A stretch of 39,952 bases of DNA from an uncultured Pseudomonadota bacterium. Lineage in GTDB: Bacteria > Myxococcota_A > Bradymonadia > Bradymonadales > GCA-2716585. The translations under genes and the position numbers were made by a program. Each line of letters begins with the position of its first letter. The stretch's first letter is position 1. The DNA lies in the NCBI GenBank assembly GCA_937890335.1, contig CALBXO010000838.1:1-39952 (forward strand). Reading direction: 5' to 3'. Below the pieces are notes generated by a model. That model had not been told where the DNA came from, did no database searches, and saw only the letters and a list, made by a program, of their open reading frames with translations. This document shows positions 2,601 to 13,079 of the stretch, piece by piece.

Positions 2601-4943
2601 CTACCCAGCAAAGACCATCCGCCAGGTCCCGCCGCAGTTCTTGACCAGGTCTGCGGCCATGGCCTGCGCCACGTCTGTGAGGCGGTCCAACGGGGTGTGG
2701 GGGTTGCCCTGGATGCAGATGGCGCAGTCCGTGGTTTTGGTGGACACCGCGACGGCCTCGGACTGTTTGGATGCCACGCGGGTGATGACCATATTGGAGT
2801 CGTCGCGCAGGACCCATTCGCCGGGCTCGATGGTCTCCGGGTCCCGCCCCTTGACGGGAATGAAACGCTCCGTACCGCCGGCCACGGCGTAGGTGATGGT
2901 GCCGGTGATGACCTTCCGGTCGTAGGCGCCCATGACCAGACCCTCGCGCAGGGACCAGCCGTTGTAGGTGTCCACCAGCGAGTTGATGTTGGGCAGCTTG
3001 CCGTTCTCGCGGACGATCTTGATTAGATTGCCCACGCTGTGGTGGTCGCCCCTGTCGCGCTCGCCGAGGAGCTCGTCGTAGGCCAGCACATGAGGCTGCG
3101 CCGCGTGCACGTCCATGTCGAGGGCCTCAGAGACCTCCCGCTGCCAGCGGTTGATCGACTTGACCTTGCGGCGCACGTTCACGTCGTTGAGCTCCAGGAT
3201 GACGCACGGCCAGTCCACGCCGGGCTCCTTGACGAACTCGAGCGGTGTCAGCGTCGCTTCGGCATTCTCGCCGTCGTGCCTGGCGGCGAGGCCCGTGATG
3301 ACGTCGTCGTCGATCTTCTGGAACAGGAACTTCGGTTCACCGAGCTGTGTCCCCTCGCGCAGCGGCTCGCCGAGGCTGCCGCCGAGCCACTCGAGCACGG
3401 TCTCACAGCGCTCCGGCATGACCGGCCAGCAGATGTGGGCCAGCTCGTGCACAATGCGGCAGGCAACGTACAGGCTGGTCTCACACGCCGGCAGATCGTC
3501 GTTGAAGGTGCGCCACGGCTCGCTGAACTGGAAGTACCGGTTGCCGATGTCGGCGAGCTCGAGAATGCGTGTGGTCGCCTGGCGGAGCTCGAAGTCGGCG
3601 TAGGCTTCATGGATCTCTGCGAGCTTGGCCTCCGCGGCCGCCAGGGTCTCCCGGTCGTGGTCGGTCAGCTGCCGACAGTGGGGCACGTGGCCAAAGCGCT
3701 TTTTGACGAAGCTGAGCACCCGGTTGACCAGGTTGCCGATGTTGCCGACCAGATCGGTGGCCACCGTCGTCTGGAATGACTCGAAGCTGAAGTCCGAGTC
3801 GCGCCGCTCCGGGCGGTGCGCCAGGATGTAGAAGCGCCATGCGTCCGCGGGGAAGCCCATCTCGACGACGTCCTCGGAGAAGACGCCACGTCCGCGGCTC
3901 TTGCTGAACGCGCCGCCGTTGTAGGTCAGGTACTCGTTGGAGGCGATGTACGTGGGGAGGTTCCAGCCGTCGTCGGCGGCGAGCAGGGTCGCGGGCCACA
4001 TGATGGTGTGGAACGGCACGTTGTCTTTGCCCATGAAGTGGATGAGCTTGGCGCGGTCTCCCTTCCACCAGTCCTCGAGCGAGTCGCCGTCTCCACCGCC
4101 GTTGTCGATCCACTCCGCTGTGGACGCGATGTAGCCGATCGGCGCGTCAAACCAGACATAGAAGACCTTGTCCTCAAAGCCCTCTTTGGGCACTTCGACG
4201 CCCCAGTCCAGATCGCGGGTGATGGCGCGCGGAACCAGCCCCTCCGCGATCCAACCCAGTGGCATGTTGCGGATGATGCCATCCCAGTCCTTCTGGCCTT
4301 TGATCCAGGCCTCGATCTTCGGCGACAGCTCGTCGAGCCGCAGGAAGAGGTGGCGCGTGGATCGGATTTCGGGCGGGTCGCCGCAGGTCTTGCACCTGGG
4401 TTCAATGAGCTCGAGCGGGTCCAGCAGCTTGCCGCACTGGTCGCATTGGTCGCCCTGGGCGCCAGCGCTGTGGCAGTTGGGACACGTGCCGACCACGTAG
4501 GTGTCCGGCAGGAACATGTCGTCCCGCACGCAGAACAATTGCTCGATCGTCTGATCGAGCACCGCGCCTGCCTTGTCGGCGGAGCGAAACATGCCCTGGG
4601 TGATCTCGTGGTTCTGCGCGCAGCTCGTGCGCCCAAAGTGCGTGAAGTCCACGTGGAACCAGGAGAAGACCTTCTCCATGCGCGCGTGGATGCGCGCGCA
4701 GTACTCCTCCTCGGACAAGCCCACCTTGCGGGCCTCCGATTCGGTCCGCGTCCCGTGCTCATCGGTGGCGCAGATGTAGATGCTGGGGTAGCCGCGCAGC
4801 TTGAGCCACCGGCTGTACATGTCCGCCGAGAGGATGGGGACCATGTTGCCCAGGTGGGGCACGTTGTTGACGTAGGGCAGGGCGCACGTGACCAGGATGC
4901 GGTCGTTGTGCGCGTCGAACTCGTAGATGTCGGTCAGCTTCAT
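2601..4943 (-). CDS. metG: methionyl-tRNA synthetase with C-terminal B3/B4 domain
   Basis: This 780-residue class I synthetase charges tRNA-Met with methionine. The HIGH-type motif is HLGN (30-33) within ALPYVNNVPHLGN, and the KMSKS-type motif is FSKSR (346-350). Two zinc-knuckle-like pairs are present: C154/C157 with C167/C170, and C184/C187. The core resembles archaeal/eukaryotic MetRS (GRT after the FG turn, YVWFDAPIGY, GKDNVPFHT). The helical anticodon-binding domain has NRYF...EPW near residues 465-480. The usual EMAPII-type OB-fold tail is absent. Residues from about 577 to the end instead match the B3/B4 domain family (COG3382/PF03483 type), with LPNINSLVDTYN, GAYDRKVITG, RFIPVKG and SKQSEAVAV. 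Its start at 4943 is divergent from the sigma54 regulator. Confidence 0.95.
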   Translation of the reverse strand: MKLTDIYEFDAHNDRILVTCALPYVNNVPHLGNMVPILSADMYSRWLKLRGYPSIYICATDEHGTRTESEARKVGLSEEEYCARIHARMEKVFSWFHVDFTHFGRTSCAQNHEITQGMFRSADKAGAVLDQTIEQLFCVRDDMFLPDTYVVGTCPNCHSAGAQGDQCDQCGKLLDPLELIEPRCKTCGDPPEIRSTRHLFLRLDELSPKIEAWIKGQKDWDGIIRNMPLGWIAEGLVPRAITRDLDWGVEVPKEGFEDKVFYVWFDAPIGYIASTAEWIDNGGGDGDSLEDWWKGDRAKLIHFMGKDNVPFHTIMWPATLLAADDGWNLPTYIASNEYLTYNGGAFSKSRGRGVFSEDVVEMGFPADAWRFYILAHRPERRDSDFSFESFQTTVATDLVGNIGNLVNRVLSFVKKRFGHVPHCRQLTDHDRETLAAAEAKLAEIHEAYADFELRQATTRILELADIGNRYFQFSEPWRTFNDDLPACETSLYVACRIVHELAHICWPVMPERCETVLEWLGGSLGEPLREGTQLGEPKFLFQKIDDDVITGLAARHDGENAEATLTPLEFVKEPGVDWPCVILELNDVNVRRKVKSINRWQREVSEALDMDVHAAQPHVLAYDELLGERDRGDHHSVGNLIKIVRENGKLPNINSLVDTYNGWSLREGLVMGAYDRKVITGTITYAVAGGTERFIPVKGRDPETIEPGEWVLRDDSNMVITRVASKQSEAVAVSTKTTDCAICIQGNPHTPLDRLTDVAQAMAADLVKNCGGTWRMVFAG

Positions 4944-5038
4944 GCGGAGCGATTAGGCCCCACGGCGCAAAAAGGCAAGTCAGTTTCTCGGAGCAAAATT
5001 CACGGCGACCCGCGCGGGTGCCGAAGGTCTGGGTTGGA

Positions 5039-6487
5039 ATGTCGTCTCCTGCACCAGATGCGCGCGAGCGCTTTGTCCGCCCGGGTCGGGTCCTCATCGT
5101 GGATGATGACGCGACTCTCCGGCTGGCCATCTCCCATACGCTCCGGCGCCTCGGTCATGAGGTGGAGGTGGCCAGGGACGGGGTCGAGGGGCTGGACATG
5201 CTGCTGGCGGACGGCCCGTGGGACATGGCCCTTTGCGACATCCGCATGCCTCGCATGGACGGCCTCGCGCTGCTGCAGCGGGCATTGGAGGCCGATCCAC
5301 AGCTGCGCATCGTGATGATGACAGGGCACGCGACGGTGGACACGGCGGTGCAGGCGCTCCGACTCGGTGCCACCGACTATCTCACCAAGCCGTTCGAGGA
5401 CATCTTCGCGGTGTGCGAGGGCGTCGTCGCTGCCGCCATCGAGCAGAGTGTCCGGGCGCGCACAGGCCTGGTTCCGGCGTTGTCGGCAAGCTCCGTACGC
5501 GCCGGGCTGTTTGAGGGCATGATCGGCCGAAGCCTCCCCATGCGAAGGCTCTTTGAGATGATCGCCGAGGTCGGTCCGTCCCACGCCACCGTGCTGGTCC
5601 AGGGCGAGACCGGTACCGGAAAGGAGCTGGTGGCCGCAGCGGTGCACCGCCGGTCGCGGCGCGCCGAGGCCGCCTTTCTTCCCCTCAACTGCGCGGCGTT
5701 GCCGACGGATCTGCTCGAGTCGGAGCTCTTTGGCCATCGCCGCGGGGCGTTCACCGGTGCGGACCGCGACAAGGTCGGTCTGATTGAGGCCGCCGACGGC
5801 GGCACTCTCTTCCTGGATGAGATCGCGGAGATGCCGCTGGCGCTGCAGGCCAAATTGCTGCGGGTTCTGGAGTCGGGGGAGCTGCGCCGCGTCGGCGACA
5901 ACACGACGCGCAAGGTGGATGTGCGCGTGGTGGCCGCGACGCACCGGGAGCTGCGGGGCCGTGTCGCCGAGGGAACCTTCCGCCAGGATCTCTTTTACCG
6001 GCTCGCCGTCGTCACGCTGGGGATTCCTGCGCTCCGCGAGCGGCTGGACGATGTGGAGCCACTGGCGGCCCATTTTCTGGCGGAGCGGCGCGTGCGGACG
6101 GGTCACAAACTCACTGGGTTGACCCCGCGGGCGCTGGACGTCCTGCGCGCGCACCCATGGCCGGGCAATGTCCGCGAGCTTCGCAACGTCATGGAGCGGG
6201 CCGTCATCTTTGCCCGCGGCGCGACGGTGGACGTGGGCGACCTCCCCGACGAGCTCGTGCACGGTGGTGCCGATCCGGTGGACTCCGGCGAGCTGCTGGC
6301 GATCACCGGGGACCTGGGCGATCTGGATCGGTTCAGCGACGCCAAGAAGCGCGTCGTGGACGACTTTGAGCAGCGCTATGTCGAGGCGCTGCTGGAGTCC
6401 ACCGGTGGCAACATCTCCGCCGCGGCTCGGATCGCCGGCCTCGACCGCGCGAACTTCCGGCGCCTCCTCAAACGCACGAATTCCTGA
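5039..6487 (+). CDS. sigma54-dependent response regulator (NtrC family)
   Basis: From ATG 5039 the protein has 482 residues; GTG 5018 is an in-frame alternative. The receiver (about 17-130) has the acidic trio VDDD, phospho-acceptor Asp67 (LCDIRMPRMDG) and Lys117 (YLTKPFE). The AAA+ domain (about 160-395) has Walker A GETGTGKE (189-196), the sigma54-contacting GAFTGA loop (236-241) and Walker B GGTLFLDE (about 254-261). The C-terminus is a Fis-type helix-turn-helix (about 440-480, GGNISAAARIAGLDRANFRR). When phosphorylated, such proteins remodel RNA polymerase-sigma54 at -24/-12 promoters. No cognate kinase is adjacent, and I found no clear -24/-12 element in the non-coding gaps of this window. 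The gene stands alone, divergent from metG. Confidence 0.93.
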   Translation: MSSPAPDARERFVRPGRVLIVDDDATLRLAISHTLRRLGHEVEVARDGVEGLDMLLADGPWDMALCDIRMPRMDGLALLQRALEADPQLRIVMMTGHATVDTAVQALRLGATDYLTKPFEDIFAVCEGVVAAAIEQSVRARTGLVPALSASSVRAGLFEGMIGRSLPMRRLFEMIAEVGPSHATVLVQGETGTGKELVAAAVHRRSRRAEAAFLPLNCAALPTDLLESELFGHRRGAFTGADRDKVGLIEAADGGTLFLDEIAEMPLALQAKLLRVLESGELRRVGDNTTRKVDVRVVAATHRELRGRVAEGTFRQDLFYRLAVVTLGIPALRERLDDVEPLAAHFLAERRVRTGHKLTGLTPRALDVLRAHPWPGNVRELRNVMERAVIFARGATVDVGDLPDELVHGGADPVDSGELLAITGDLGDLDRFSDAKKRVVDDFEQRYVEALLESTGGNISAAARIAGLDRANFRRLLKRTNS

Positions 6488-6678: not shown

Positions 6679-8022
6679 CTGAGAATTGGAATTTTTTGTC
6701 TGGCGGCGGCAGCCACGCTGTTGAGCGCATGCGGTGAAGACAAGGAGGCAACGCGCGCTGTGGAAGGCGGCGTTGACCACGTAGAGGTCGAGCAGGCCAA
6801 CCACCTGGTGGGCGTCGATGTGCCGTCAAACCTCATTGTGCAACACGCAGGCTTGGAGTGGGCGTACGCAAGCCCGTGCACGCACGGCGGCTGCAGCACC
6901 GTGACGTTGCACAACGGCTGGCGGTTTGCGACGGATGCCGAGTGGGCGAACCACCCCGGTCCCGCGCCGTTCCAGAACAAATGTGCCTCGTCCTACTTCG
7001 ACAGCCGCTGGCACCACTGTGACTACGGCGACTTCAACAACGGTCACGTGACCTCGCACCCAAGCCAGCTTGAGCCGGGCCGCTCGACCTGTTGCTCAGA
7101 GACTCTCCTGGTGCGTGCCAACGCCACGGACACCGACGGCGACGGCACGCCGGATGACGACGACGCCTGCCCGCTGGACCCGTCCAAGGCCGCGGACGCA
7201 GGCCAATGTGGTTGCGGCAACGCGGAGACCGACACAGACGGCGACTCCATCGCCGACTGCGTGGACGCCTGCCCGGCCGATCCGGCCAATGACGCCGACA
7301 GCGATGGCCTCTGCGCCGGCGATGACAACTGCCCCGTGGACGCCAACGCCGACCAGGCGGACTTTGACGGCGACGCCGCTGGCGACGTTTGCGATGCGGA
7401 CGACGACAACGACGGCGTGGACGATGTGGACGACAACTGCCACTTCGTCGTCAACTCGGACCAGGCCAACAACGACGGCGACGCCGAGGGTGACCTCTGC
7501 GACGACGACGACGACAACGACGGCGTGGACGACGTGGATGACAACTGCCAGTTCGTCGCCAACACCGACCAGGCCAACAACGATGGCGACGCCGACGGCG
7601 ACCTGTGTGACCCCGACGACGACAACGACGGCGTGGACGACGTGGATGACAACTGCCAGTTCGTCGCCAATACCGACCAGGCGAACTTTGACGGGGACGA
7701 CCTCGGCGACGCCTGCGACCCGGACGATGACAACGACGATGTCGAAGACGGCGATGACGTCTGCGGCAACACCGACATTCCCGAGGTCAGCGTGCCGAGC
7801 GTCGAGCTGGGTACGAACCGATGGGCTCTGGTGGATGGTGACAACACCTTCGACACCACCGCCCCGCGCGGTCGCGGCAACAGCAAGCGCGGCTACACGA
7901 CCACCGACACCGGTGGTTGCTCCTGCGAGCAGATCATTGCCGCGCAGGGTCTGGGCAACGGGCACACCAAGTACGGGTGCAGCAACTCCGCCATGGACAC
8001 TTGGATCGCCAGCCTCCCGTAG
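6679..8022 (+). CDS. TSP3-repeat lipoprotein with conserved Cys-rich flanking regions
   Basis: The protein has 447 residues if translation begins at CTG 6679. That is the only codon giving the full signal MRIGIFCLAAAATLLSAC, whose lipobox is LSAC with Cys18. A TTG at 6721 is the nearest usual start but would delete the signal. An in-frame TAG lies at 6661. AGGGGG (6662-6667) sits 11 bases upstream of CTG. Residues about 45-140 form a Cys/Trp/Tyr-rich domain (GLEWAYASPCTHGGC) seen in other surface proteins but unnamed. Calcium-binding TSP3 repeats follow (about 145-365), with Asp-rich cores and DNC motifs. The C-terminus has TGGCSCEQIIAAQGLGNGHT and GCS. Probably exported to the outer membrane or surface. 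It shares repeat type with the giant protein at 28.3-36.5 kb. Confidence 0.85.
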   Translation: MRIGIFCLAAAATLLSACGEDKEATRAVEGGVDHVEVEQANHLVGVDVPSNLIVQHAGLEWAYASPCTHGGCSTVTLHNGWRFATDAEWANHPGPAPFQNKCASSYFDSRWHHCDYGDFNNGHVTSHPSQLEPGRSTCCSETLLVRANATDTDGDGTPDDDDACPLDPSKAADAGQCGCGNAETDTDGDSIADCVDACPADPANDADSDGLCAGDDNCPVDANADQADFDGDAAGDVCDADDDNDGVDDVDDNCHFVVNSDQANNDGDAEGDLCDDDDDNDGVDDVDDNCQFVANTDQANNDGDADGDLCDPDDDNDGVDDVDDNCQFVANTDQANFDGDDLGDACDPDDDNDDVEDGDDVCGNTDIPEVSVPSVELGTNRWALVDGDNTFDTTAPRGRGNSKRGYTTTDTGGCSCEQIIAAQGLGNGHTKYGCSNSAMDTWIASLP

Positions 8023-8164: not shown

Positions 8165-11100
8165 TCAGCAGTCGGTGATGGTGAATTTGAGGGTGCCGCC
8201 CTCGGCGAAGGCCATGATGTGGTCGCCGGGGTTTGCGCTGCCGTCGAGGATGAGCTCGGAAACCGGCGCCTCAATGAGACGCTGGATGGTCTGGCGCATG
8301 GGTCGCGCGCCGAGCTGCGGGTCGTACCCGCCGTGGTCGATGAGGTGCTCAAGCACGCCGTCTCCGGTCTCGAGGTGCACCTCCCGCTCAATGGCGAGAC
8401 GCCGCGCGGAGTCCTGGAGCTGAAGGCGCGCGATGCACCCGACCTCCTCTCGGCTCAGCGGTCCGAAGACGAGGCGCTCCTCGATACGGTTCCACAGCTC
8501 GGGGCTCAGCGCCGATCGCGCGATGCTGACCACCTCCTGCTGGATCTCCGGCGTGAGCGTGGCGCGGTGGCTCGGCGCGATGACCTGAAGCCCACCAAAG
8601 CCGATGCGGCTCGTCGTGACCGCGGCCAGACCGGCGCTGAACTGTTCCGAGCCGAGGTTGCTCGTCAGGATGATGACGGTGTTGCTGAAATCGACCTTGC
8701 GACCGCGGCCATCGGTCAGATGGCCGTCGTCCAGGAGCTGCAACAGCACGTTGAGCACCTCGGGATGGGCCTTCTCCACCTCGTCGAGCAGGACGATCTG
8801 GTACGGCTTGCGGCGGACCGCCTCCGTGAGTTGGCCGCCGTGCTCGTACCCGACGTAGCCGGGAGGAGCGCCGATGAGTCGCGCGACCGCGTGGGCCTCT
8901 CGGTACTCCGACATGTCGATGCGGACCATCGCGTTGCGGTCCCGGAACAGAAAGTCCGCCAGCACCTTCACGAGCTCCGTCTTCCCCACGCCGGTGGGTC
9001 CGAGGAACAGGAAGCTGCCGATGGGCCGTCCCGAGTGGAAGCCCGCGTAGTTTCGGCGGATGACCTGGCTGACGGTCTGGATGACGTCGGTGTGGCCGAT
9101 GAGGCTCGCCGACAGCTGCTCCTCCATGCGCAGGAATCGCTCCCGGTCTCGCATGAGCAGTTTGTCCACGGGCACGCCGGTCCGGTCGGAGACGACCTCG
9201 GCCACGATGGCGCGGGTGACCTTGTCGGCGTTCTTGCGGCGCGCGCGGCTCCCTGCGGTGTCGAGCAGGCCAATGGCCTTTGCGGGGAGCATCAGATCTG
9301 GGATGTACCGCCGGGAGAAGTGCACCGCGGCGGCGATGGCCTCATCCTCGAATTCCACGCCGTGGTGACCGGCGTAGCTCGGCATGATTCCGCGGATGAT
9401 CTCCACCGCCTCTTCCGGCGAGGGCTCGCCCACCTCCACAAATTGGAACCGGCGCTTGAAGGCCGGGTCATTCTCGATGAAGCGGGTGTACTCCTGCGGC
9501 GTCGTGGCGCCGACACACGGGAACTGTCCCCGCGCGAGGGCGGCCTTGAGCTCGCCCGCTGCGTCGGCTCCGTCGCCGCTCGCGCCCGCGCCCATCCAGG
9601 TGTGGATCTCATCCAGGAAGATGATCACGCGACCGGCGGCCTTGAGGACCTCGTCCTTGATGCCAAGGAGCCTCTCGGAGAACGAGCCACGCAGTTGGGT
9701 CCCGGAGAGGATGCGTCCCATCTCCAGCTCGACCACGACCTTGTCGCCGAGTCCGGTGCCGTCCCCCATCCGGCCGACCAGGTCGACCGCGAGGCCCTCG
9801 ACGATGGCCGTCTTGCCGACGCCGGCCGGACCGACCAGGATCGGGTTGTTGCTGCGGCGGCGCCCAAGGATGTCGATGATCTGCTCGATCTCCTCGGCGC
9901 GGCCGACGAGACCGTCCAGCTTGCCACCGACAGCCTCGAGACTCAGGTTCCGCCCCAGCTTGGCCAGGGTCGGGAACTCCTTGTCGCTCAGTTTGTAGTG
10001 CTCGGCCAGACGACGCTTCTCGGCGTGACTGCGCTTGGGCGTTGTGCGGGTGGCCGCCTTGGGCCGCGCCTTCGCCACCGGCTGAGGTGCCGCTTCGACG
10101 GGCGCAGGTGTCGGGGCGGCCTCCAGCTCCTCGGCAGGCCCAGAGGCGTGTCGGGGTGGGCGCTGCGCGTCGTTGTTCTCGTCCCTCAGCTCCTGTTCGC
10201 GCCGTCGCCGGGCGGGTAGATCCTCACCGAAGATGCTGTTCGCCAGCTTCTTCATCGACGGCTTCTCCGTCCCATTGCGCCGTGGCTTTCGGCTGCCGAA
10301 CCGACCCTTGAGCTTGTCCTTGATGGCCTCCTGCTCCCCGGTTGTCGGGGCCTGGGGCGTGGACTTGCGGGGCACGCGAGGCGCGAGCGGCTTGGACTGT
10401 CGGGGGGTGGAGGATCTGGGCGCCGGGCGCGGTGCCTGCCGGGGCGCAGCACGGTTCACAGGCTGCTTGGGCGTCGGGGTCTGCGGCGCCGGGGGCGCAC
10501 CATCCAGGTGCTGCAGGTACGGGTTCTGCTGGGTCATCGGATGGTCCGGCGCGAAACCGTAGGGATTGGGTGCCGGAGGCGCAGGAATTGGAGCGTGCGT
10601 CGGCAGGACCACCCCGTGCACCGCGTCCACACGTGCGCCGTGCACGTGCGTGGGCACCTGCTCCAGGACCGGGTTCTCCTCGGTCTGGGGACGGCGAAGC
10701 GCCGGCATCTCCAGCGTGGTGCCCGGACTCATCTGCACCGCGCCCTCGTACCGCGCCATCGGACTTGCGACCGACTCCGCGACAGGGGGCTGCGTGATGC
10801 GACGCGGGGGGCGGCGCTGCGCTGTCAGGTAGCTGATGAGCGTGTTGCGCAGGCGATTCGTGTCGCACCCGGTCTGCCGCAGCGCGCGCACGGCGCCACT
10901 GGACGCGTGGTAGCGCAGCAGCCCGACCAGAAGGTGGAAGCTGGTGATGACCTTGCCCGGGCCAGTCCCGGCGACGGTCTGCGCGGTGCTCCACACAAGC
11001 CCGAGCACCCCGTCCGGCTCCTCCTCCTCGCCCCCGAACAACACCCGCTGCAGGCTGTCCGGGTCTACCTGGTGGTCGCGCAGGTAGTTTTGGGCCAGGT

Positions 11101-11236
11101 TGTCGACGCCGAAAAACGCCCACAGCAAATGCTCGCTCGTGAGCGTCTGTCGAGACTCTCTCGCGCGGGCAACCGCCAGATTGATTAATTGGTTCGCCTC
11201 TGAAGACAGAGGCGGGGCCAAGCGAGGCTGATTCAT
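8165..11236 (-). CDS. ClpA/ClpC-like double AAA+ unfoldase with long linker
   Basis: The protein has 1023 residues from ATG 11236; ATG 11254 is an in-frame alternative. A Clp N-domain (about 8-145) is followed by roughly 280 residues rich in Pro, Ala and Arg (about 146-430), predicted disordered. AAA1 has Walker A GPAGVGKT (469-476) and Walker B IFLDE (539-543). AAA2 has Walker A GPTGVGKT (746-753), Walker B VLLDE and pore motif GYVG (793-796). There is no ClpB-type middle domain. An IGF tripeptide (878-880, SRIGFGG) lies where ClpC/ClpA/ClpX carry the ClpP-docking loop. This suggests a protease partner rather than a ClpB disaggregase. The AAA1 pore motif reads GTQLRG where the family usually has a Tyr (KYRG). 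The C-terminus has the usual D2 small domain. Confidence 0.9.
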   Translation of the reverse strand: MNQPRLAPPLSSEANQLINLAVARARESRQTLTSEHLLWAFFGVDNLAQNYLRDHQVDPDSLQRVLFGGEEEEPDGVLGLVWSTAQTVAGTGPGKVITSFHLLVGLLRYHASSGAVRALRQTGCDTNRLRNTLISYLTAQRRPPRRITQPPVAESVASPMARYEGAVQMSPGTTLEMPALRRPQTEENPVLEQVPTHVHGARVDAVHGVVLPTHAPIPAPPAPNPYGFAPDHPMTQQNPYLQHLDGAPPAPQTPTPKQPVNRAAPRQAPRPAPRSSTPRQSKPLAPRVPRKSTPQAPTTGEQEAIKDKLKGRFGSRKPRRNGTEKPSMKKLANSIFGEDLPARRRREQELRDENNDAQRPPRHASGPAEELEAAPTPAPVEAAPQPVAKARPKAATRTTPKRSHAEKRRLAEHYKLSDKEFPTLAKLGRNLSLEAVGGKLDGLVGRAEEIEQIIDILGRRRSNNPILVGPAGVGKTAIVEGLAVDLVGRMGDGTGLGDKVVVELEMGRILSGTQLRGSFSERLLGIKDEVLKAAGRVIIFLDEIHTWMGAGASGDGADAAGELKAALARGQFPCVGATTPQEYTRFIENDPAFKRRFQFVEVGEPSPEEAVEIIRGIMPSYAGHHGVEFEDEAIAAAVHFSRRYIPDLMLPAKAIGLLDTAGSRARRKNADKVTRAIVAEVVSDRTGVPVDKLLMRDRERFLRMEEQLSASLIGHTDVIQTVSQVIRRNYAGFHSGRPIGSFLFLGPTGVGKTELVKVLADFLFRDRNAMVRIDMSEYREAHAVARLIGAPPGYVGYEHGGQLTEAVRRKPYQIVLLDEVEKAHPEVLNVLLQLLDDGHLTDGRGRKVDFSNTVIILTSNLGSEQFSAGLAAVTTSRIGFGGLQVIAPSHRATLTPEIQQEVVSIARSALSPELWNRIEERLVFGPLSREEVGCIARLQLQDSARRLAIEREVHLETGDGVLEHLIDHGGYDPQLGARPMRQTIQRLIEAPVSELILDGSANPGDHIMAFAEGGTLKFTITDC

Positions 11237-11270
11237 CGGCGCCCCCGTAACCATCGTCCTTGATGCGCTC

Positions 11271-11287
11271 GACACCCTCCTGGTGTC
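11271..11287. promoter_or_regulatory. inverted repeat in the Clp/kinase divergent intergenic region
   Basis: GACACC (11271-11276) and GGTGTC (11282-11287) are perfect 6-bp arms around CTCCT. The repeat lies just upstream of both candidate Clp starts and about 140 bases before the kinase. It could be an operator or a 5' leader hairpin of the Clp transcript. The remaining bases to 11426 show no other clear site. Confidence 0.35.
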
Positions 11288-11426
11288 TACGCGCGGTTCC
11301 GCCAGATCCGGTTGTAACACATGGGATCGCCGCTCGCCAATGCCTCGGCACCGATGCACACGGCGAGGGGTTGCCGGTCCTATGCCCACAGTGTAGGGTG
11401 ACGTGGGGGGCTCGGGCCAAGCTGGG

Positions 11427-13079
11427 ATGGATGACGCAAAACACATCCTCCTCATCGACGACGATGGGGAGGCGCGTGCCGCTTCGCGACTGGTGGTCGC
11501 ATCGCGCTGCGCAGGGGCGCGACTCGTAGAAGTCGCGACTGCGGTTGAGCTCGTCGACGCCTTGGTTCTTGGCGGGTTCGAGCTGGTCGTCGTGGAGCCC
11601 TCCGTGCCGTGGGCGGACGCCGATGACCTCGTCGGTTGCCTGGCGCGCCACCTTCCCGCCGCCCGCCTTATCATCTTCACGCGTGACCCCGATCCATTCG
11701 CCGACGAGCTCGCCGGCCGACCCGGCGTGAGCGCCTGGGTCCACAAGGACGGCTTCAGCTGTGTCACGGCGCTGGCGCAGGCGGTGCAGGTGGCGCTGGA
11801 TACGGCAGAGTCGCCAAACGGCCGGGTGTTCCCAGACCTGGATGAGCTGGAGTCGAGCCCCGGATTGATGCGGGTGACGCGGCCCTCGCAGCGCGTCAGC
11901 CCGCCGCCCGACGATCCCCCGGTGGTCCCGTCGGTCATGGAGCACACCGCGGCCCAGACCGGAGGCCACACGCCGATTCAGGAGCCGCCGCGCACTGACC
12001 TGAGCCATCGCGTCATCCGCAGCAACCCCGTTGCGGAGGACACGCCCGTGCCCGAGGCGCGGATTGGCGCCGTCGTGGGAATGCCCGAGGATCGCCATCC
12101 TGGTCTGCGGCTTTCGACGCCCGCGGCGCAGCAGGCGCCAGAGCCAATGCTCGAGACGCCGCTGAGTGCCGAGGGCCTCGAGGCGCTCGGGACGCTTCAC
12201 GATATGCAGGAGCCTCTGCGCACCGTCATCAACTACCTGACTGTGCTGCGCGAGCGGCACGGCGACGACATGGATGGCGTGGCTCCCTCTTTGATGGAGA
12301 AGGCGGAGGGTGCGGCCAGACGGATGCTCGATGGTCTGCAGCAGGGGTTGCCCACGAGCAAGACGGACACCCCTCGGGCCATTCCCTCCCGCCCGGGGAA
12401 GGCCACCGGGCGCTGGCGGGTGACCGAGGACGCCGACTTTCCCGCGCTGGAGCTGGGACCTTCCACTGAATCCATCGCGCTGCACAACGACGAAGATGTC
12501 GAGACCATCGACGTGCAGCGGGCGAGCATCGACGACGGCGTGACCCGACCCGTCGCGCCGTTGCCCGAGGACCTCGGCGACTCCGCACTGGACCTCTCCG
12601 ACCCGGAAGTGGCCATGCGGGCGACGTTGGAGAACCTGGAGTCCACGATCAGCCGTCACGGCGCCCTGATCACGTGGGACCCGCTGCCGGAGTCGCTGCC
12701 CCTCAGCGAGCTCCAACTCACCCAGCTGTTCCAGAACCTGCTGTCGAACGCGATCAAGTTCCGCGGTCGGAAGGCGCCGCGGATCCATCTGGGCGTGACG
12801 GATGTGCCAAACGGGTACGAGATCAGCATCGCCGACAACGGGGTGGGCATCCCGCGCGAGGCCCAGAAGCGCGTGTTCCGGATGTTCGAGCGTGCCCACG
12901 GATCCGCATTCCCCGGCACCGGTATCGGCCTGGCCATCTGCAAGCAGATTGTGGAGGGAGCTGGCGGCAACATCTGGCTCGAGTCCGTGCCCGGCGTCGG
13001 CACCACGGTGCGCTTTCGGGTCCCCCTGGTGTGGGAAAAGTTGACGGTTGGGGCCGTCGCTCCCACATTGTCAGGCTAG
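11427..13079 (+). CDS. hybrid histidine kinase with Glu-substituted receiver
   Basis: This encodes 550 residues from ATG 11427; GTG 11403 is an in-frame alternative. The N-terminal receiver (about 5-115) keeps the acidic DDD near its start, Thr in IIFTRDP and Lys in WVHKDG. The phospho-acceptor position reads VVVEPSV, so Glu replaces Asp. A Pro-rich linker follows (about 130-240). A dimerisation helix (about 245-310) has the phospho-acceptor LHDMQEPLR, like bacteriophytochrome-type kinases. An unusual spacer of about 130 residues then precedes the ATPase domain (N box QNLLSNAIKF, G1 DNGVGIP, F box MFERAHG, G2 GTGIGLAICKQ). No transmembrane segment is visible. The gene ends 32 bases before the GGDEF-EAL gene and probably shares its transcript. 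Confidence 0.88.
   Translation: MDDAKHILLIDDDGEARAASRLVVASRCAGARLVEVATAVELVDALVLGGFELVVVEPSVPWADADDLVGCLARHLPAARLIIFTRDPDPFADELAGRPGVSAWVHKDGFSCVTALAQAVQVALDTAESPNGRVFPDLDELESSPGLMRVTRPSQRVSPPPDDPPVVPSVMEHTAAQTGGHTPIQEPPRTDLSHRVIRSNPVAEDTPVPEARIGAVVGMPEDRHPGLRLSTPAAQQAPEPMLETPLSAEGLEALGTLHDMQEPLRTVINYLTVLRERHGDDMDGVAPSLMEKAEGAARRMLDGLQQGLPTSKTDTPRAIPSRPGKATGRWRVTEDADFPALELGPSTESIALHNDEDVETIDVQRASIDDGVTRPVAPLPEDLGDSALDLSDPEVAMRATLENLESTISRHGALITWDPLPESLPLSELQLTQLFQNLLSNAIKFRGRKAPRIHLGVTDVPNGYEISIADNGVGIPREAQKRVFRMFERAHGSAFPGTGIGLAICKQIVEGAGGNIWLESVPGVGTTVRFRVPLVWEKLTVGAVAPTLSG

Follow-up and report, generated by a model that had tools for sequence, protein, structure and literature searches.

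The locus studied here raises the question of what an editing-type B3/4 domain does at the C-terminus of a methionyl-tRNA synthetase (MetRS). In the window, the 39,952-nucleotide stretch of DNA that was analysed, positions 2601 to 4943 of the minus strand form one uninterrupted open reading frame of 780 amino acids with an ATG start, for which the following features were obtained.

2601..4943, minus strand: metG, the MetRS-B3/4 fusion, 780 amino acids in a single open frame (NCBIfam NF001100, TIGR00398).
3714..4898, minus strand: MetRS catalytic core, residues 16–410 (PF09334, tRNA-synt_1g; 479 bits, E = 1.2e-143).
3264..3686, minus strand: anticodon-binding domain, residues 420–560 (PF19303, Anticodon_3; 49 bits).
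2604..3215, minus strand: complete B3/4 domain, residues 577–780 (PF03483, 52–56 bits; AlphaFold model; Z of 22 with CtdA).

The protein exceeded the equivalog cut-offs of both NF001100 (605.5 bits, cut-off 587) and TIGR00398 (525 bits, cut-off 336), and the metG product is therefore named methionine--tRNA ligase. The PHLGN and FSKS signatures were found in the catalytic core, and an intact core and anticodon domain precede the B3/4 tail. Pfam B3_4 matched residues 635–746 of the full protein (52.4 bits, E = 6.4e-14; gathering cut-off 29.3), and the 204-residue tail searched by itself matched B3_4 (56 bits, E = 5e-15) and no other Pfam family. A C-terminal EMAPII tail is common in MetRS, though not universal; no Pfam match to EMAPII (tRNA_bind, PF01588) was found in the window MetRS up to an E value of 1. 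The first-pass annotation had described a MetRS with a B3/4 domain in place of EMAPII, quoting four motifs that were all found in the window protein. The HMM search it proposed bore this description out, with PF03483 above the Pfam cut-off (6e-14) and no better-scoring unrelated domain in the tail; the fusion is real, being a single frame that two other genera also encode. When the genome was searched, this fusion was the sole full MetRS core, and the only other B3/4 domain was that of PheT, a separate gene on another contig. As far as the 91%-complete assembly shows, the fusion is the cell's working MetRS, with no ordinary MetRS as a fallback.

The metG gene sits between, and opposite in strand to, two regulator genes (872–2524 and 5018–6487, both plus strand), which encode a hybrid receiver–histidine kinase and an NtrC-type sigma-54 regulator. 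Positions 6721–8022 (plus strand) encode a protein with three stretches of thrombospondin type 3 repeats of the Asp-rich, calcium-binding type, and 8165–11971 (minus strand) a double AAA protein resembling ClpA/ClpB, with a long additional stretch at its N-terminus. Such a protein is also found near metG in locus L013 (8204–11416, plus strand), where the genes are arranged differently. No methionine-gene neighbours of metG were seen in the window.

Two other genera of the same family (CAKZKQ01 and SYOX01) encode the same fusion, with 61–63% identity to the window protein end to end and 56–57% over the tail alone. In a sample of the phylum, the fused domain was present in 3 of 282 genomes, all of the window's family, and the possibility that it is a general feature of the phylum was rejected on this count; one further weak match in the sample (L019) lies in a frame that reads as PheT. 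In a further genus of the family (G001), MetRS is of another kind and has an EMAPII-like tail; the MetRS proteins examined from relatives in the order and class likewise ended in such a tail, each as read from the translations. No MetRS core was found in the fifth genome of the family, which is 65% complete. Ordinary bacterial MetRS with an EMAPII/Trbp111 tail thus shares the catalytic core and anticodon domain with the window protein but has EMAPII where the latter has B3/4. The window core is itself more closely allied with archaeal-type MetRS (L015, L113) than with the EMAPII-bearing enzymes of its relatives.

To characterize the tail, we obtained an AlphaFold model of residues 577–780 (mean pLDDT 76, pTM 0.75). 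The model adopts a B3/4 fold over the whole domain and matched CtdA, a canavanyl-tRNA-Arg deacylase (PDB codes 9f7e and 9mkl), with a superposition of 201 of 204 residues (Z 22.2, rmsd 2.5 Å). The tail therefore corresponds to one whole domain, whose start coincides with the boundary at 3215 drawn in the first-pass annotation. The B3/4 region of the phenylalanyl-tRNA synthetase (PheRS) beta chain ranked after CtdA in the model comparison (Z 14–17 over about 159 residues), and CtdA-type entries ranked first in a PDB sequence search with the tail. A full-length model (pLDDT 64, pTM 0.50) was too poor to place the B3/4 domain against the core.

The domain had been labelled as being of the PheRS-beta editing type. 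The assignment to the B3/4 family holds, but PheRS beta is not the closest relative: sequence, structure, and active-site residues (VDxYN plus Gly versus VDxTN plus His) all place the tail nearer to stand-alone deacylases of the CtdA/COG3382 type. The B3/4 domain of PheRS beta, which hydrolyses Tyr-tRNA-Phe, shares its fold and the water-site Asn with the window tail, but it belongs to another synthetase and has Thr and His where the window has Tyr and Gly; the remaining domains of PheT are absent from the window protein. Origin from the genome's own PheT was considered and rejected, given that PheT is a separate gene and that the tail is more like stand-alone B3/4 proteins. CtdA has the whole fold in common with the tail, as well as the VDxYNxxS motif, Gly at the PheRS His column, and Gln at position 727. 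It differs in being a stand-alone protein with Glu at 674 and 745, whereas the MetRS-fused window domain has Tyr674 and Gln745, and it falls in another B3/4 clade, together with ArgRS-fused domains.

In PheRS, the catalytic water is held by Thr249 and Asn250 (Thermus) or Thr263 and Asn264 (M. tuberculosis), with His275 stacking on A76 and Glu334/Glu344 and Gly315/Gly325 recognising tyrosine (PMC12447630). The corresponding region of the window domain contains the following elements.

2961..2996, minus strand: LPNINSLVDTYN motif, residues 650–661, with Tyr660 and Asn661 and then Ser664; a putative water-positioning site (alignment).
2919..2930, minus strand: GAYD, residues 672–675, with Gly at the PheRS His261/275 column and Tyr674 at the position that is acidic in CtdA/ArgRS types.
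2763..2765, minus strand: Gln727, which is Gln in 23 of 23 MetRS-clade domains, Asp in 10 of 10 domains of the LysRS-C clade, and Glu or Gln elsewhere.
2709..2711, minus strand: Gln745, which is Gln in most MetRS-clade domains and acidic in Lys, Arg, and CtdA types.

In the alignment, Tyr660, Asn661, and Gly672 occupy the PheRS Thr, Asn, and His columns, and the same three residues are present in CtdA. The window domain thus has a site other than the VDxTN water site of PheRS beta with its Thr249 and His261 (Thermus numbering), with the Asn being kept. Asn661 was found in 100% of MetRS-type, Lys-type, and other B3/4 domains and is retained in PheT, and Tyr660 was found in 100% of MetRS-type domains. 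At column 674, MetRS-clade domains have His or Tyr, LysRS-C domains Phe or Tyr, and most others Asp or Glu; window-type domains differ from archaeal members of the MetRS clade at this column (Tyr for His) and at 721 and 724. Column 745, which by a count on the alignment is some two residues away from the position that holds Glu334 in PheRS beta, is Phe in four and Glu in one of the MetRS-clade domains that depart from Gln, and Asp or Glu in the Lys, Arg, and CtdA types. We infer that columns 674, 727, and 745 line the pocket. As we read it from the sequences, such a pocket would be devoid of acidic groups for basic side chains and would suit a neutral one.

Phylogenetic analysis of 68 B3/4 domains placed 17 of 17 MetRS-fused domains together with six stand-alone ones in a single clade (support 99/97), and this clade was recovered (100/98) in a second tree from which long branches had been removed and to which plasmid-borne stand-alone proteins had been added. 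Trees in which the three domains of the window's family were forced into either of two alternative groups were about 18 log units worse (AU p values of 0.059 and 0.066), so that placement of these domains inside the MetRS clade appears strong by bootstrap and borderline by the AU test. MetRS is free of B3/4 in all six genomes that encode a stand-alone clade member. In one of them (G352), the stand-alone gene (L142:928–1617) is accompanied on the same strand, within 5.4 kb, by genes for a methyltransferase, a MetE-type methionine synthase (PF01717), and MetRS. This gene run (L142:928–6320, plus strand) is of DPANN-type archaeal origin, its MetRS carries EMAPII, and a divergent gene for an AsnC/Lrp-type regulator lies beside it. 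Inspection of other genes of either kind, stand-alone or fused and the window's included, showed no methionine-gene neighbourhood, which was therefore rejected as a rule, being seen with one stand-alone relative.

The first-pass annotation knew of no published MetRS of this kind. Searches of the open-access PMC literature for MetRS with B3/4, PF03483, or COG3382 returned nothing relevant (the slash in "B3/4" is unsearchable), which fits that claim, but the architecture is not unique, and the search for it in other MetRS sequences showed that it recurs beyond the window's family in DPANN archaea and CPR bacteria. A scan of a genome collection of 85,000 species with the three tails of the window's family revealed further relatives in one Nanoarchaeota archaeon and three Gracilibacteria, each a MetRS with B3/4; in the Nanoarchaeota enzyme, B3/4 is followed by EMAPII. 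Wider sampling of these two phyla (327 and 379 genomes) added one CPR fusion and nine from DPANN genomes, of which L057 is a fragment. Several archaeal MetRS proteins have B3/4 and EMAPII together, and the backbones of B3/4-fused MetRS are of two deep types, with or without EMAPII. No viral carriers were found among the viral contigs scanned. On a tree of MetRS cores, the distribution of the fusion required at least five gains or losses across well-supported branches. The window core grouped with the Nanoarchaeota enzyme, the unfused archaeal L113, and one CPR enzyme (99/99), away from the enzymes of its relatives, which suggests that the whole metG gene was acquired laterally.

The same searches detected B3/4 domains on LysRS class I, LysRS class II, ArgRS, and TyrRS-type synthetases. 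With near-copies removed, the partner amino acid required four changes on the tree of fused domains, the minimum, compared with a mean of 12.1 and a lowest value of 9 for 500 shuffles; MetRS-fused domains had served as the seeds of the survey, and this result carries that bias. LysRS-I and LysRS-II are unrelated enzymes, and most of their B3/4 domains, all of these C-terminal, formed one clade (98/92). The domains fused to ArgRS in L104, L105, and L111 were nearest to CtdA (86/89), for which canavanyl-tRNA-Arg deacylase activity in trans, independent of ArgRS, has been demonstrated (PMC10018355). Together, the partner matching, the common LysRS-I/II clade, and the position of these ArgRS-fused domains suggest that B3/4 clades correspond to amino acids or tRNAs rather than to synthetase folds, as expected of an editing domain.

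Like the window protein, these LysRS, ArgRS, TyrRS, and TrpRS fusions of CPR and DPANN genomes have an editing-type domain appended to a synthetase; they differ in B3/4 clade and partner and in having mostly acidic pocket columns. No publication describing them was found in the open-access PMC literature. LysRS-I fusions were seen in L069, L094, L103, and L107, with an N-terminal B3/4 domain in L079 and L083, and LysRS-II fusions in L078, L088, L093, L096, and L098; these are CPR and DPANN genomes, and most of the domains belong to a single B3/4 clade that has Asp at two pocket columns. ArgRS with N-terminal B3/4 occurs in CPR genomes (L099, L101, L106, L104, L105, and L111), and the proximity of the last three to CtdA suggests built-in canavanine editing. 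B3/4 domains are N-terminal on TyrRS-type (W/Y family) synthetases of CPR genomes in L087:187–2160 (minus strand) and L112:1294–2499 (plus strand). A 753-residue frame, L102:397–2655 (minus strand), has tRNA_edit (YbaK) and B3/4 followed by a W/Y-family synthetase read as TrpRS, and L075:1–2061 (plus strand), a cut locus, encodes a PheRS beta chain with a C-terminal B3/4 domain.

The first-pass annotation had proposed either post-transfer editing or an added tRNA-binding role for the tail. The former is the better supported, and we consider it probable that the tail acts in post-transfer editing on tRNA-Met, a reading that draws on the conserved fusion, the MetRS-specific clade, the retained active-site residues, and the stand-alone relative whose gene neighbours those for methionine synthase and MetRS. 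According to this model, the MetRS core would charge tRNA-Met, the aminoacylated CCA end would move into the B3/4 pocket, and a water molecule positioned by Tyr660 and Asn661 would hydrolyse the ester if the amino acid were a neutral analogue of methionine, with Met-tRNA being spared. Homocysteine would be the first candidate substrate, given the methionine synthase neighbourhood and the known weakness of MetRS for this amino acid, and norleucine, ethionine, or another analogue is possible. The residues Tyr15, Asp52, Trp253, His301, and Trp305, which we take to be those that serve editing in E. coli MetRS, appear to be kept in the window protein, so that the tail would supply a hydrolytic site in addition to the pre-transfer editing of homocysteine at the MetRS active site, rather than replace that step. 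Known MetRS editing is a pre-transfer reaction in which homocysteine, once activated, is cyclised at the catalytic site (PMC7373986, PMC11004401). That homocysteine editing thus appears to be provided for already speaks against the editing reading. S-nitroso-homocysteine evades much of this pre-transfer step and can enter protein (PMC11004401), the kind of gap that a hydrolytic domain would fill.

A B3/4 domain whose hydrolytic function was lost or never used might instead act as an additional tail for tRNA binding or docking in place of EMAPII. This possibility, which we regard as unlikely, accords with the location of B3/4 at the position of EMAPII, which it replaces in the window lineage, and with the presence of EMAPII instead in G001. 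It sits poorly with the archaeal enzymes that have both domains, with the existence of stand-alone members of the clade, and with invariant hydrolytic-site residues that mere binding would not need. Less likely still is an editing role in trans, either against methionine misplaced by MetRS on non-cognate tRNAs or on behalf of another tRNA. Mis-methionylation of other tRNAs by MetRS is known from yeast and from mammalian cells (PMC7373986, PMC4179492), and CtdA works in trans, but Met-tRNA-Met would have to be spared, the domain, being fused, lies close to the tRNA that the anticodon domain holds, and the common LysRS-I/II clade points to a cognate tRNA/amino-acid pair as the link. Hardly any credence attaches to an assembly join or frameshift that put two genes in one frame, the artefact against which the first-pass annotation had cautioned: the assembly is fragmented (972 contigs), but the orthologous junction in two other assembled genomes, with 61–63% identity through the join, refutes it, and archaea and CPR bacteria show the same domain order.

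The combination of MetRS with a CtdA-like editing domain is thus made of known parts; it is real, is conserved and recurs, and is undescribed in the open-access PMC literature searched. With somewhat less confidence than for the editing role itself, we favour a joint reading in which B3/4 domains are general, modular factors for post-transfer editing, each clade devoted to an amino acid (Met, Lys, Arg, or Tyr), which occur free and have been repeatedly fused to the matching synthetase, even where, as with LysRS-I and LysRS-II, the enzymes are unrelated. The window MetRS would be the methionine member, with a previously unknown post-transfer site gained together with the archaeal-type MetRS. 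In the current view, editing of homocysteine by MetRS takes place solely before transfer and at the catalytic site (PMC7373986), and a separate hydrolytic domain on MetRS would, if confirmed, change this view. The role of B3/4 proteins outside PheRS, answered only for canavanine in the papers found, becomes testable for Met, Lys, and Tyr, and amino-acid-matched clades would provide the poorly understood PF03483/COG3382 family with substrate predictions, each open to assay.
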